From NCBI RefSeq assembly GCF_014764445.1, contig NZ_CP061721.1:2604001-2668000 (forward strand): a DNA stretch of 64,000 nt. Reading direction: 5' to 3'. A program made the translations under genes and the position numbers. Shown piece after piece: positions 11,585 to 61,183 of this stretch (the stretch's first letter is position 1; each line of letters opens with the position of its first letter). The DNA is from Pseudarthrobacter sp. BIM B-2242. GTDB taxonomy: Bacteria > Actinomycetota > Actinomycetes > Actinomycetales > Micrococcaceae. Under the pieces are notes generated by a model. The model was not told the origin of the DNA, made no database searches, and saw only the letters and a list, made by a program, of their open reading frames with translations.

Positions 11585-12151
11585 TCAGGGGCGCGAATCC
11601 AAGGACTGGAGCATGGCCTGGACCAGGGACTCCTGCAGCCACGTGGTGAAGTTGTACACGAGGGCCAGGTAGCTTTCCACGTCCTCGGCCTGGGACCAGT
11701 CCTGCATGAGGTGCACGTGCTCCGCATCTGCCTCATCCCGGATGTCCAGCCGCTCCGCCAGTACCAGGCGGACATCGTTCAGGGCCATTGACCAATGCCT
11801 GGCACCCTCGGCGGTCAGGACAATCTCATCCTTGTCCAGATCCAGCGCAGCGGCGCGGAGAGCCCCGATCTTGGTTTCCCGCAGCGAACGCTCGGTGAGT
11901 TGGCGGAATTCAAGGGACGCGCCGTCGTCGTTCTTCATGACATCCGGCAGGAGCCGCCTGACCGCACGGTCCGTGGGGACCTGGACGTCCATGTCCAGCC
12001 CGATCAGGGCAACCAGGGGATCCTCACTGGGGTTTTCGGCCGGCTCAAGCATGGAGATCACATCGTCGATCAGGCTGCGGAGCAGTTCACGCTCGGCGGG
12101 TTCGAGAAACCCGGTGATGCCCTTGAGCCCGTATTTGAATGCCTTAGCCAC
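11585..12151 (-). CDS. DUF2017 protein
   Basis: A 188-residue soluble, acidic, helix-rich protein of unknown function. Actinobacterial genomes keep it directly after clpS, so a link with ClpS/Clp proteolysis or cell-wall supply (murI downstream) is plausible but unproven. The start is GTG 12151, with AAGGGG upstream, and it overlaps the clpS stop by 8 bp. The longer upstream frame lies inside clpS and is a shadow. A 119-bp gap to murI contains no further feature I can name. Confidence 0.85.
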   Translation of the reverse strand: MAKAFKYGLKGITGFLEPAERELLRSLIDDVISMLEPAENPSEDPLVALIGLDMDVQVPTDRAVRRLLPDVMKNDDGASLEFRQLTERSLRETKIGALRAAALDLDKDEIVLTAEGARHWSMALNDVRLVLAERLDIRDEADAEHVHLMQDWSQAEDVESYLALVYNFTTWLQESLVQAMLQSLDSRP

Positions 12152-12536
12152 GTTTCCCCTTGCCCTGCCCGGACCCGCCGGATTTTCCTGAGTTCCTGGA
12201 GTTGCCGCCCGGACCTCCGGTCGCCTTCTCCACAGTGGCCCACAGCCCGAAGCCGTGCATGGCCACCGCATGGCGTTCAACCTGTTCCTTGCTGCCGTGG
12301 GCAACGATGGACCGGCCCTTTTTATGGACCTCCATCATGAGCTTGTTGGCCTTGGTCTCGGAATAGCCGAAGTAGCTCTGGAATACGTAGCTGACATAGC
12401 TCATCAGGTTGACGGGATCGTTCCAGATCACCAGGTTCCAGGGGATGTCCGGGGCGGTCAGGGAGTCTGTGGACGCCTCTGTCCCGGTCCGGGTGCCCTC
12501 CTGGGTATCAGGGCCGAGCGCAACGCTTAAGGTCAT
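12144..12536 (-). CDS. clpS: ATP-dependent Clp protease adaptor ClpS
   Basis: This is the N-end-rule adaptor that delivers substrates to ClpAP/ClpCP. After a disordered lead of about 30 residues come the core motifs WNLVIWNDPVNLMSYV, VHKKGRS and E-rich helix regions ending in HGFGLWATVEK. The 130-residue length includes a Gly/Lys-rich tail. The start follows a leaderless promoter (TAGAAT, 6 nt, ATG). A 59-bp tandem repeat array begins 22 bp upstream of that -10 box. Confidence 0.95.
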   Translation of the reverse strand: MTLSVALGPDTQEGTRTGTEASTDSLTAPDIPWNLVIWNDPVNLMSYVSYVFQSYFGYSETKANKLMMEVHKKGRSIVAHGSKEQVERHAVAMHGFGLWATVEKATGGPGGNSRNSGKSGGSGQGKGKRG

Positions 12537-12542
12537 CTGTCC

Positions 12543-12548
12543 ATTCTA
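12543..12548 (-). promoter_or_regulatory. -10 box of clpS, leaderless type
   Basis: TAGAAT on the minus strand, then 6 nt and the clpS ATG at 12536. The -35 position would touch the first unit of the neighbouring repeat array. Confidence 0.65.
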
Positions 12549-12570
12549 TGGGGAGGACGGGCCCACGCTG

Positions 12571-12882
12571 ACGTGGGAGCCGGCGGGTGGGCCCACGGCG
12601 GCGAGGGCCCCGCGGCGAAGCGGAGCGAGACGTGGGAGCCGGCGGGTGGGCCCACGGCGGCGAGGGCCCCGCGGCGAAGCGGAGCGAGACGTGGGAGCCG
12701 GCGGGTGGGCCCACGGCGGCGAGGGCCCCGCGGCGAAGCGGAGCGAGACGTGGGAGCCGGCGGGTGGGCCCACGGCGGCGAGGGCCCCGCGGCGAAGCGG
12801 AGCGAGACGTGGGAGCCGGCGGGTGGGCCCACGGCGGCGAGGGCCCCGCGGCGAAGCGGAGCGAGACGTGGGAGCCGGCGGG
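12571..12882. repeat. 59-bp perfect tandem repeat, 5.3 copies
   Basis: Five identical 59-bp units start at 12571, 12630, 12689, 12748 and 12807, then a 17-nt partial unit ends at 12882. Each unit begins ACGTGGGAGCC and contains the palindrome GTGGGCCCAC. The unit has no stop codon in any frame on either strand. Since 59 is not a multiple of 3, long repetitive reading frames appear in all six frames; these are artefacts, not genes. The array exactly fills the space between the divergent clpS and pncB promoters. Confidence 0.97.
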
Positions 12883-12885
12883 GAC

Positions 12886-12891
12886 TAGAGT
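12886..12891 (+). promoter_or_regulatory. -10 box of pncB, leaderless type
   Basis: TAGAGT, 7 nt, then GTG at 12899. The repeat array ends 3 bp before it, so the -35 region lies wholly inside repeat sequence. Confidence 0.65.
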
Positions 12892-12898
12892 GAATTTC

Positions 12899-14227
12899 GT
12901 GAGTAATCCTGCCGGCTGGGACCATCCCCGCGCGTCCTTGTACACAGACCACTACGAGCTGACCATGCTTCAGGCGTCGCTGCACTCCGGCGCTGCGCAC
13001 CGGCGGTCCGTGTTCGAGGCTTTCGCCCGGCGGCTTCCGGACGGCCGCCGGTACGGGATTGTGGCCGGCACGGGCCGGCTGCTGGAAGGCCTCGCCGATT
13101 TCCGCTTCGGTGCAGAGGAGCTCGATTTCCTGGGCCGCACCGGCGTGGTGAACCAGGACACCCTCGATTACCTGGCGAATTACCGCTTCACCGGTGACAT
13201 CTGGGGCTACCCGGAGGGTGAGGCGTATTTCCCCAACTCCCCCATCCTCATTGTGGAGTCCACCTTCGCCGAAGCCTGCATGCTGGAGACCTACCTCCTC
13301 TCCGTCCTGAACCATGACAGCGCCATCGCGTCTGCGGCGTCCCGCATGATCACGGCGGCCGGCAACCGGCCGTGCATCGAGATGGGCTCCCGGCGTACGC
13401 ATGAAGAGTCAGCCGTTGCGGCCGCCCGCGCCGCCGTAATTGCCGGGTTCCACAGCACCTCCAATCTCGAGGCAGGCATCCGCTACGGCATCAAGACCGT
13501 TGGCACCGCCGCGCATTCGTTCACCCTCCTGCACGACACCGAACGGGAAGCCTTCGAGGCGCAGATCGCCTCACTGGGGGTGGGCACCTCGCTGCTGGTG
13601 GATACGTACGACGTCGAAGCTGCAGTCCGTGCCGCCGTCGAGTTGGCAGGGCCCAAGCTGGGCGGGGTGCGCCTGGACTCCGGCGACCTGGTGGCCCAGG
13701 CCTCGTGGGTGCGCCAACTGCTGGATGAGCTGGGCAACGAGCAAACACGGATTATGGTCACCTCGGACCTGGATGAGTTCGCCATCGCGGCGCTGCAGTC
13801 CGCCCCGGTGGACTCCTACGGGGTCGGCACCTCCCTGGTCACCGGCTCCGGCGCCCCCACGGCGAGCATGGTCTACAAGCTGGTGAGCCGCACGGACGAC
13901 GCCGGCAACTTCGTCTCCGTGGCCAAGGCAGCGAAGAACAAAACCAGTATGGGCGGGCGCAAGTATGCGCTGCGCAAGCTCAACGAGCGCGGCATCGCCA
14001 CCCAGGAGATCGTGGGCATCGGCCACCGTCCCGAGGACGACGGCAATGACCGGCCCCTGCTCCAGCAGTTTGTGAAGAACGGCGAGTTGCTTCCGGGCTG
14101 GACGGGCCACGAGGGCGTCGTCCGTGCCCGCCAGCGGCACGCGGACACCATGGCCGAACTGCCGTCCGTGGTCAACCGCCTGCAACGTGGAGAAGCAGCC
14201 ATTCCCACTGTCTACGAGGAGAACTGA
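12899..14227 (+). CDS. pncB: Nicotinate phosphoribosyltransferase
   Basis: It makes nicotinate mononucleotide from nicotinate and PRPP, the key step of NAD salvage. The 442-residue product begins with LYTDHYELTMLQ, the family N-terminal signature. It has EMGSRRTHEESA, HSTSNLEAG, a GTAAHSF segment with the His expected to be phosphorylated, and LDSGDL. The frame is open far upstream only because the tandem repeat lacks stops. GTG 12899 is supported by the leaderless -10 box. Its stop overlaps the pncA start. Confidence 0.95.
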   Translation: MSNPAGWDHPRASLYTDHYELTMLQASLHSGAAHRRSVFEAFARRLPDGRRYGIVAGTGRLLEGLADFRFGAEELDFLGRTGVVNQDTLDYLANYRFTGDIWGYPEGEAYFPNSPILIVESTFAEACMLETYLLSVLNHDSAIASAASRMITAAGNRPCIEMGSRRTHEESAVAAARAAVIAGFHSTSNLEAGIRYGIKTVGTAAHSFTLLHDTEREAFEAQIASLGVGTSLLVDTYDVEAAVRAAVELAGPKLGGVRLDSGDLVAQASWVRQLLDELGNEQTRIMVTSDLDEFAIAALQSAPVDSYGVGTSLVTGSGAPTASMVYKLVSRTDDAGNFVSVAKAAKNKTSMGGRKYALRKLNERGIATQEIVGIGHRPEDDGNDRPLLQQFVKNGELLPGWTGHEGVVRARQRHADTMAELPSVVNRLQRGEAAIPTVYEEN

Positions 14228-28150: not shown

Positions 28151-28447
28151 GCCACTGGCTCTCCCCTGGCCTGCGCCGGCTGCGGTGAATAGTGCCCTGA
28201 CAAGGGGATTCATGCCGTTTTGCCCAAAATTTCCCGGCCTGACCGTTGACCTGACGCGGACGGCATGAAATTCTTAGAACAGTCTTTGTGTAGGTGTTTT
28301 TTCATGCTCGCAAGACAAGTTGCGAGCGCGAAGCTCCTGCACCGCCGGTCCCCTTTGGGACCGCAGTTTAGGATTCTTCTCGCGGAGTGACCGAGTCCGG
28401 CACGAGGTGTGCCGGGCTTAGACAAGTTCCATAATGAGGAGAAATAA
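28151..28447 (+). promoter_or_regulatory. Intergenic region with structured leader of the cold-shock gene
   Basis: About 300 bp without a gene. It holds an 8-bp inverted repeat CATGCCGT/ACGGCATG (28211-28218 and 28260-28267) and a possible TTGACC -35 (28246-28251). A 7-bp hairpin CTCGCAA/TTGCGAG lies at 28307-28326, and the ribosome site GAGGAGA sits just before the csp ATG. The long leader is as expected for csp mRNAs that fold differently at low temperature. The exact transcription start is not defined. Confidence 0.55.
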
Positions 28448-28651
28448 ATGGCACAGGGAACCGTCAAGTGGTTCAACGCTGAAAAGGGCTTCGGCTTCAT
28501 CACCCCGGATGACTCCGATGGCGATGTCTTCGTTCACTACTCCGAGATCCAGACCGGTGGTTTCAAGACCCTCGACGAGAACCAGCGCGTTCAGTTCGAA
28601 ATCGGTCAGGGCGCCAAGGGCCCCCAGGCTACCGGCGTAACGCTGGTCTAG
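28448..28651 (+). CDS. Cold-shock protein
   Basis: A 67-residue CSD protein: [14 protein letters not shown] (RNP1) and DVFVHYSEI (RNP2). It binds single-stranded RNA/DNA and acts as an RNA chaperone. It has a strong SD (GAGGAGA), a structured leader and its own terminator, so it is monocistronic and probably highly expressed. CspA-type, but the paralogue cannot be named. Confidence 0.95.
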
Positions 28652-28694
28652 TAACCCGCCCGGAGGCCGCCTCGTCGCGGCTTCCGGCAAGAAG

Positions 28695-28725
28695 ATCCCC
28701 GGCACCCGTGCCGGGGATTTTTTTG
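28695..28725 (+). terminator. Terminator after the cold-shock gene
   Basis: An 11-bp stem ATCCCCGGCAC/GTGCCGGGGAT (28695-28718) with a tiny loop is followed by seven Ts, a textbook intrinsic terminator. Confidence 0.93.
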
Positions 28726-59226: not shown

Positions 59227-59299
59227 GCCCTCGTAGCTCAGGGGATAGAGCGTCTGCCTCCGGAGCAGAAGGTCGTAGGTTCGAATCCTATCGAGGGCA
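59227..59299 (+). tRNA. tRNA-Arg (CCG)
   Basis: A 73-nt cloverleaf with acceptor stem GCCCTCG/CGAGGGC, discriminator A, D-arm GCTCAGGGGATAGAGC, anticodon loop CTCCGGA with anticodon CCG, and T-loop GGTTCGAATCC. The CCA end is not encoded. It decodes CGG, which is common in high-GC genomes. Confidence 0.97.
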
Positions 59300-59337: not shown

Positions 59338-59432
59338 CTGCGCTCCGGCTGAGAACTCAGTCATCCGCCGCAGAGCCAAGGTCCGGAATGCTGGCCGTCT
59401 GCAAGTCGAACCTCACGAGGGGGAACCTCACG

Positions 59433-59575
59433 AATGCGGTTTCAGGCACTCAAACTCAGCAATGCGACTTCGGGCACTCGTAACCCAGGAGTGCGGCTTC
59501 AGGGAGCAAACTCAGCAACGCCGCTTCAGGCACTCGAAACCTCAGGAGTGCGATTTAGGCAGCAAAACGTCAGGG
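59433..59575. repeat. Degenerate tandem repeat, about five 27-30 bp units
   Basis: Units start at 59433, 59461, 59490, 59517 and 59547. Shared core: (A/G)TGCGGYTTCAGGCACTCR followed by AACTCAG. They are imperfect, with alternate 'GGCACTC' and 'GGGAGC/GGCAGC' forms. A short GAACCTCACGA direct repeat (59408-59434) precedes. With the surrounding sequence this fills the 309-bp gap between the tRNA terminator and the HNH gene; no ORF or promoter is recognisable there. Confidence 0.8.
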
Positions 59576-59608: not shown

Positions 59609-61183
59609 CTAGGTGACTGGGGCTCGTGGTGATCGGTCGTTCGAGAGCGCCCACGGATCCCCCGGGAATCCTTGAACGTCATGGAATCGTTGAACAGCAT
59701 CAATAGCCGCACCGGGCCAGTGGGGTGGTTCCTGGTCGGGTTGTTCGCTTTGGTAGTGGCGGCCGGTGGGTGAGATCCAGCCGGGCGGCTCGTTTTTGGT
59801 GGCTTCGGTGGGTTGCCAGGGTGTGGTGTGTTTGAGCTTGTGATGTTTTGGGCAGAGTTGGGTCAGGTTTGTGATCCCGGTACTCCCGCCGTTGGCCCAG
59901 GCGTTCAGGTGGTCCGCTTCGTTGTCCAGGGATGGGTTGGAGCAGCCGGGGAACTGGCATTTTCCGTCCCGGAGCCGGAGCCATTGACGCAGCGCTTTGG
60001 GGATCCGGTAGCTTTCCCGGCCGATCTCCAACGATGCCCCGTCCCGGGGATCAGTCAGGACCCGGCGGAACGACTCGGCACCGTCGGCGACAAGCTGCCG
60101 GGCCATGGAGGGCGGGATCGGTCCGTACCCGTCGAGGATGGCGGGTTCATCGGTCAGACCCATCAAAGCGAACACCGGAACCGTCACGAGGACCTGGGCC
60201 GTCGGTGACGGGATCCTCCCGGCAGCCCCGTTCTGAGTGCTGTCCAGAGTGCCGTCCAGGGTGCCGCCCTGAGTGGCGTCCTGGGTGCTGTGCAGGGTGC
60301 CGCCGAGCAGCCACGCCGCGACGTTATCCGCACGGAGCTGGGTGAGGGTCCTGCCCTCGGCGGGGCCCTGCAGGGCGCGGGCTGCTGTGGTGGCCCGGTT
60401 CCAGATCCCGGAAGCCTGATCGGCGGGCAGGTAGGCCGAGAGCCAGGCCATCCCGTCCCGGTCCGGACAGAATTCGACCCGCCGGTCCAAGGCGCTCCGG
60501 GTGTGGCGTGTTTCGATACTGACCGGGTGATGCCGCTCCCGCCACGTCCGGGCTTTCGCCCGGAACCGGCCCGGGACCATCCCACCGGCCGCACCGCGGG
60601 CCGGGTTCGGCGCCTCCGGGTCCAGGAAATGCGCCTCCAGCGCGTGGGCGGCGGCGGGCTCCAGATTGGTTGTTTCGTCGACCATAATCCGGGCATGCTG
60701 CCACGACAACGTCCCGGCCTGAAGGGCCGCCAACGTCAGCGGCAGAGCACTACGTAAACGGTGGGCCTCACCCAGCAGCCCGCCGGCCGTACGTTCACTG
60801 ACCGTCAGGGCACACGCAACCTCAGCCACGATACCCATCTCCTGCGCGGTCTGCTCCTGCGGGGACATGATGGGCCCCGCGATCACTTGGGCGGCCTCGT
60901 CATACCCGCCGGCCGCATGGACCTTCACCGCAGCAACCATCGCCTCCAACCCCGCCGCGCCGGACAGGACCGTCAGACACGCCTCAGCCTGCCAACGCAA
61001 CGGGTCAGAGTCAGCCGCCGAAGGGCCGGCTGCGAAAGGGCCAGGCACCGGGCCGTCCGCCGGCCCGCGCGCCGTGCTTACTGGCGGGCTGTCGGCCGGA
61101 TCCGTCCCCCGGATCAAACCGGCCAGCCGCAAGGCAGAAGCCGCGATGGCCTCCAGAACCTCTGCACCTGCGGCGTTATCCAT
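59609..61183 (-). CDS. DUF222 / HNH endonuclease domain protein
   Basis: A 524-residue protein of the actinobacterial '13E12' type: DUF222 in the middle and a C-terminal HNH nuclease with CQFPGCSNPSLDNEADHLNAW and NLTQLCPKHHKLKHT. These are repeated, mobile-like genes in Arthrobacter and mycobacteria. An in-frame low-complexity insert (about 60236-60310, Gly/Thr/Gln/Asp-rich, ~15 bp units) splits the DUF222 region. ATG 61183 has GGAGG very close; function in DNA rearrangement is not shown. Confidence 0.88.
   Translation of the reverse strand: MDNAAGAEVLEAIAASALRLAGLIRGTDPADSPPVSTARGPADGPVPGPFAAGPSAADSDPLRWQAEACLTVLSGAAGLEAMVAAVKVHAAGGYDEAAQVIAGPIMSPQEQTAQEMGIVAEVACALTVSERTAGGLLGEAHRLRSALPLTLAALQAGTLSWQHARIMVDETTNLEPAAAHALEAHFLDPEAPNPARGAAGGMVPGRFRAKARTWRERHHPVSIETRHTRSALDRRVEFCPDRDGMAWLSAYLPADQASGIWNRATTAARALQGPAEGRTLTQLRADNVAAWLLGGTLHSTQDATQGGTLDGTLDSTQNGAAGRIPSPTAQVLVTVPVFALMGLTDEPAILDGYGPIPPSMARQLVADGAESFRRVLTDPRDGASLEIGRESYRIPKALRQWLRLRDGKCQFPGCSNPSLDNEADHLNAWANGGSTGITNLTQLCPKHHKLKHTTPWQPTEATKNEPPGWISPTGRHYQSEQPDQEPPHWPGAAIDAVQRFHDVQGFPGDPWALSNDRSPRAPVT

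Follow-up and report, generated by a model that had tools for sequence, protein, structure and literature searches.

The 59-bp tandem repeat between clpS and pncB of Pseudarthrobacter sp. BIM B-2242 is, with a probability of roughly three in four, a locus-specific and locally amplified lineage within a dispersed family of REP-like hairpin elements of about 60 bp, and would act as a spacer uncoupling clpS from pncB. We analysed a window of 64,000 nucleotides of this genome, and positions refer to the window. The element recurs elsewhere in the genome and in other species, its hairpin covaries, its copy number at this locus varies between species, and its copies here belong to a lineage of their own. 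An effect of the array on clpS and pncB is plausible. Most likely, a REP-like repeat became the spacer that separates two otherwise overlapping promoters.

The tandem repeat identified by TRF at 12570-12882 (period 59, 5.3 copies, 100% matches, score 626) is not due to chance. An earlier note on this DNA had described five identical 59-bp units between the -10 boxes of clpS and pncB, and these are confirmed at 12588-12882 (Table 1). The 17-nt partial copy that it listed belongs to a sixth, degenerate unit, of which it forms the right-hand portion. The fifth unit, with its GGGGA end, is the array's top match to the hairpin model presented below (71.2 bits); the unit is followed by the bases G, A and C and then by the pncB -10 box TAGAGT. 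The identities given to ClpS and PncB were correct, as both NCBIfam models matched above their cut-offs. Directly after pncB lies a nicotinamidase-like gene (125 bits with an NCBIfam model, under the cut-off of 174), and the gene after clpS (11585-12148, reverse strand) matched the model of the AosR oxidative-stress regulator with 70.5 bits, below the cut-off of 260. Although the pncB frame stays open across the array, we rejected a coding role for it: 59 is not divisible by three, and a PncB query starting at 12899 aligns from residue 1 in most Arthrobacter-type relatives.

Table 1. Features of the clpS-pncB region, in window coordinates.
Feature	Position	Strand	Remark
clpS, ATP-dependent Clp protease adapter	12144-12536	-	start codon at 12536; NF000668 124 bits, cut-off 86
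Presumed clpS -10 box TAGAAT	12543-12548	-	6 nt ahead of ATG; from position
Degenerate sixth unit, clpS side	12558-12587	+	about 29 bp missing internally; leftmost of six unit tails; read from sequence
Unit 1 of five identical 59-bp units	12588-12646	+	read from TGGG
Unit 2	12647-12705	+	
Unit 3	12706-12764	+	
Unit 4	12765-12823	+	
Unit 5 (12824-12882) with terminal G and A (GGGGA)	12824-12884	+	abuts CTAGAGT
ACTAG, common anchor of the element family	12884-12888	+	overlaps the pncB -10 box here
Presumed pncB -10 box TAGAGT	12886-12891	+	7 nt ahead of GTG; from position
pncB, nicotinate phosphoribosyltransferase	12899-14227	+	NF006698 655.3 bits, cut-off 531

The palindrome GTGGGCCCAC, which the earlier note assigned to each unit, is present, but it is not a free-standing motif: it straddles the boundary between two units, where the family's hairpin has its foot. 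As a free-standing operator it was rejected as the main reading. Along the lines of that note, the array could be a copy-number rheostat, with every unit bound by a protein, either at GTGGGCCCAC or at the hairpin foot, and both genes tuned together by the number of units. We regard this as unlikely. The palindrome does recur at every unit junction, but an allele with a single unit has no junction, and hence no palindrome.

The units belong to a family that extends well beyond the array. The best of the other copies in the same genome are 75-80% identical. We built a covariance model from 27 aligned units of many sites (58-61 bp, with GGGGA ends). Their hairpin is paired in 95.5% of the cells of the alignment, against 39-51% in slid controls, and nine of its 18 pairs have changed on both sides, for a covariation score of 0.269 against 0.017-0.051 in the slid controls. 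The model has 14 matches in its own genome at E ≤ 0.01 (17 at E ≤ 1). It matched all 25 same-genus genomes, own included, with 2 to 37 matches in the 24 relatives, when only 139 candidates per genome were scored. Family-wide, matches were found in 28 of 100 genomes and 11 of 32 genera, and the 14 genomes of other families gave one marginal match (E 0.005). The Micrococcaceae carry a structured repeat family of patchy distribution, mostly without the usual REP transposase.

Relatives also carry arrays of at least two family units at other gene ends (L143-L160 and L162), among which L147 has 10 units and several lie at the apparent 3' end of ddl, a putative gene name given by reading. A second palindromic repeat, with arms like AATCGACTGCTCCGTA and TACGGAGCAGTCGATT, lies at 1582-1643 of L002 and recurs in the same genome. 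It was also found around elements of L119, L120 and L123, and its right arm encloses several of the hairpin elements. No Rfam covariance model matched in 12500-12950 up to E = 1. Elsewhere in the window, the Rfam cspA thermoregulator matched at 28377-28723 (score 80.1, gathering score 78), which is unexpected in an actinobacterium. Imperfect tandem repeats occur at 59424-59566 (period 29/56), about 125 bp after the tRNA gene 59227-59299, and at 60233-60304 (12/24/36 bp).

The hairpin may not matter at the clpS-pncB locus, because the window unit folds as RNA no better than shuffled sequences (z -0.49) and covariation among the pncB units alone is weak (three of 18 pairs with change on both sides). 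Conservation of the unit need not stem from the hairpin. One of the model's base pairs fails to form in any of the 36 distinct pncB unit rows. Among seven other units folded as RNA, those of L118 and L014 were no better than shuffles and the other five had z of -2.1 to -4.1. Folding four stretches as single-stranded DNA gave none with a clear advantage over shuffled sequences (z 0.61 to -1.42).

The family is extragenic and sits mostly at gene 3' ends. According to a crude gene finder, convergent genes flank 46 of the 97 listed elements (out of 119 model matches), and a gene 3' end stands only to the right of 26 and only to the left of nine. Another 14 lie between divergent genes, of which 12 are pncB copies, and two were unclassified; nine of the 97, four of them pncB copies, fall inside a gene predicted by the same crude finder. 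A stop codon that ends a frame open for at least 150 codons stands at offset 0 in 28 of the 97, and in four at most at any other offset tested. This placement behind genes, rather than in promoters, counts against the rheostat. Together with the ability of the family to form a hairpin, it fits a transcription terminator or an mRNA 3'-end structure located here by chance. Yet the array lies upstream of both genes, no T-run intrinsic terminator occurs in 12400-13050, and the 3' end of a ugpC-like gene has, by eye, another long inverted repeat both with and without the element. We rejected the terminator reading on the missing T run, and any role of this kind appears very unlikely.

In the dispersed elements, the GGGGA end often stands a single base away from a stop codon, and ACTAG is a frequent context. 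The four bases that follow the element are CTAG in 31 of the 97, although CTAG is rare in the window (27 observed, 204 expected from base composition). We compared two further sites in 30 genomes each, at the 3' ends of the ugpC-like and groEL-like genes (putative names, from reading; matched in 40 and 41 of 41 genomes, respectively). At the ugpC-like site CTAG is present in eight of 10 sites with a full element, three of five with a tail and one of 15 without the element (full against none, Fisher p = 3e-4, uncorrected for kinship). Judged by eye, this classification put one full element (L287) under tail and one remnant (L283) under full. Visual inspection of the groEL-like site gave ACTAG or ATTAG at most of the filled sites, with extra bases in L304 and L314. 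Several empty sites there read GCTAG or CCTAG, so the A of ACTAG may be the element's own. One element in L155 and one in L232 seem to lie directly against -10-like boxes of other genes. Of 71 terminal units compared, every one ends in GGGGA, and 56 are GGGGACTAG (46 of 47 pncB-like units and 10 of 24 others).

Such a constant end, the association of CTAG with the element at the ugpC-like site and the polarity of decay along the arrays (see below) would suit a truly mobile REP, with units inserted beside ACTAG, at the anchor end, by a tyrosine transposase of the IS200/IS605 or RAYT type. However, the RAYT-type transposase domain PF01797 was found in one of 61 same-genus genomes and nowhere in the genome studied here, and we rejected RAYT-driven insertion on these grounds. 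Resemblances among the elements argue in the same direction. Across 13 genomes the pncB units are 0.929 alike, but the likeness drops to 0.770 when they are set against further elements fetched from the genome they sit in (50 comparisons, covering 11 of the 13). Hence, they look like one locus-specific lineage and not like repeated insertions from the genome pool, which disfavours recurrent new insertion by copies already present in the genome. The best-scoring elements outside pncB are as alike within genomes (0.868) as between them (0.866), and thus give no sign of a recent burst. A mobile REP of this type is decidedly improbable.

The clpS-pncB gap holds from 0 to 10 units across 74 related genomes, the window included: 0 units in 25 genomes, 1 in nine, 2 in five, 3 in 22, 4 in eight, 5 in two, 6 in two and 10 in one, with possible under-counts in draft assemblies. 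The window is counted among the 6-unit gaps, its short sixth unit included, and one of the 25 zero-unit gaps is a remnant (L071), which leaves 24 truly array-free. The earlier note expected copy number to vary between strains and proposed counting units in related genomes; among these genomes, one per species, the number is indeed not fixed. That note missed both the unit-free version with its 13-bp gap, present in 24 of the 74 genomes, and the dispersed family. The loci were the pncB loci of named genomes plus the best array matches in same-genus genomes. The 74 gaps correspond to 83 loci (L004-L086) and the window, minus three failed extractions (L022, L059 and L081) and seven duplicates of named loci (L007, L013, L016, L020, L021, L029 and L031). 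As 29 of these loci (L004-L032, 21 kept) were picked for likeness to the array, the 50 filled gaps among 74 do not measure prevalence; the window and the 52 named loci include 29 filled gaps. An array match occurs somewhere in 124 of 150 same-genus genomes, own included.

An assembly artefact had been named as something that would overturn the description of the array. Perfect short repeats do assemble poorly, but this genome is in two contigs with 100% completeness, and other genomes in a single contig carry three to six units (e.g., five in G073 and six in G106). Arrays also carry variants common to their own units. An artefact is therefore scarcely credible.

Close relatives differ in unit number. 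Hiyo4 has four units and MDT3-9 none, with flanks 98.8% (left) and 97.4% (right) identical. The pncB frame of Hiyo4 (L085, 2501-3823) stops after 280 codons. On a tree of the flanks (53 rows) the filled and empty states alternate, with nine changes, eight of them forced by well-supported branches, against a mean of about 17.6 when states are shuffled. In sister pairs such as L061 and L063, a 60-nt stretch of the filled allele stands in place of two bases (RC) that precede ACTAG in the empty one. This replacement of 2 nt by 60 nt counts against both simple insertion and slippage.

Both promoters are presumed, from their position and from the -10 boxes kept in the extracted gaps. The boxes occur in 74 of 74 gaps, a biased count since the extraction itself required near-matches to them: it tolerated only one mismatch around the clpS box, and the pncB box is similarly biased. 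A strict sigma-70 scan of 12400-13050 found no promoter. With 6-7 nt from each -10 box to the start codon, both promoters would be leaderless. In the unit-free gaps the -10 boxes are exactly 13 bp apart (24/24), whereas in the 50 gaps with an array or a remnant they are 64 to 602 bp apart. The earlier note had suggested that copy number would change the face of the helix. This idea finds no support: the spacing of the -10 boxes shows no preferred helical phase among the 49 gaps with units (resultant 0.083 at 10.5 bp), and phase control was rejected. This lack of phase, and the 24 gaps without any unit, also weigh against the rheostat.

These observations would also suit a neutral passenger, a repeat that grows and shrinks without effect while the -10 box by itself suffices for each promoter. 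Neither -10 box is lost at any unit number, spacing follows no helical phase, and close relatives differ in the number of units. We consider this reading quite possible, though not the one to be preferred. The evolution of the units tells against it. The pncB-side unit is 0.905 identical across 27 species in which fourfold sites are 0.511 identical, a codon-aligned comparison that leaves out L085, with its short pncB frame, and in which the unit is the more conserved in 351 of 351 (non-independent) pairs. Such strong conservation suggests either selection or lateral spread. Furthermore, the clpS-side unit decays and the pncB-side unit mostly does not: the more diverged end unit is the leftmost, on the clpS side, in 26 of 35 arrays with at least three units and the rightmost in three, with six ties. 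A conserved unit that is better kept on the pncB side would also be expected under the rheostat.

Units within an array evolve in concert, since in 40 arrays they are 0.983 identical within arrays (leftmost unit omitted) and 0.846 between arrays. The five units of the window show no mismatch over 295 sites, which by the rule of three limits the change since their expansion to less than about 1% per site, a bound that would be looser if the unit is under selection. By comparison, the end branch of the window in the flank tree is 0.10. A recent local expansion, as the earlier note proposed, fits the perfect identity of the copies.

The spacer reading can be put together as follows. The ACTAG at the pncB -10 box would stand in for the family's usual anchor at gene 3' ends. 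Full-length units would recombine unequally or slip against each other and so change the unit number, and whole arrays would be gained or lost between close relatives by allele exchange or precise loss, not by fresh insertion from the genome's own pool. In the unit-free state the two promoters should exclude each other because their -10 boxes are 13 bp apart, so that one polymerase would block the other. By setting the boxes 64 bp or more apart, the array would uncouple clpS from pncB and leave the promoters independent. The first unit probably gives most of the uncoupling, and extra units would add little. A bolder version, to which we give a low probability, is that a transposase-less, ACTAG-anchored hairpin element was recruited into this promoter pair. 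Purifying selection would then act on its pncB-side unit, which would be renewed at the anchored end, and close relatives would transcribe clpS and pncB either independently or in mutual exclusion, depending on whether they have the array. The alleles form a natural series of one promoter pair (0, 1, 2, 3 ... 10 units), in which the effect of separation is directly measurable.

We found no description of this element in the open-licence literature, a scope that mostly excludes subscription papers. In actinobacteria, the MIRU and VNTR loci of mycobacteria are dispersed units of similar size, in variable tandem copies and near stop codons. The present family differs from them in being a covarying hairpin, and the likeness is one of description, not of sequence. 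It resembles REP, BIME and REPIN sequences in that all are short, extragenic, imperfect palindromes with compensatory changes and are also clustered (PMC2817692, PMC3733652). REP elements are described as having a length of 20-40 bp and a terminal GTAG (or CGTC) tag (PMC3733652), and usually number more than 100 copies per genome. In contrast, the present units are 58-61 bp long, their foot is GGGGA, often beside CTAG, instead of a GTAG tag, their copy numbers are the far lower ones given above, and the genome has no gene for a RAYT or Y1 tyrosine transposase. Whereas BIMEs alternate in orientation, the present arrays are direct head-to-tail copies.

Closer to Arthrobacter, the VNTR loci of its relative Renibacterium salmoninarum (PMC4029610) are likewise tandem repeats of variable number; the main text of that paper contains neither "clpS" nor "nicotinate", and the likeness comes from its description and not from a comparison of loci. 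Numbers for Arthrobacter livingstonensis are given in a table of PMC12306157. A parallel in arrangement is described in Haemophilus influenzae, where a variable TA repeat between the divergent genes hifA and hifB affects both (PMC3899988, PMC2651432). Given this precedent, the earlier note's statement that it knew of no described case was too strong for the general idea. In both systems a pair of divergent genes is separated by tandem repeats whose number varies. The 2-bp repeat of hifA-hifB is reported to alter the spacing between -35 and -10 (PMC3899988, PMC2651432), whereas the present repeat has a 59-bp unit and lies upstream of two -10 boxes.
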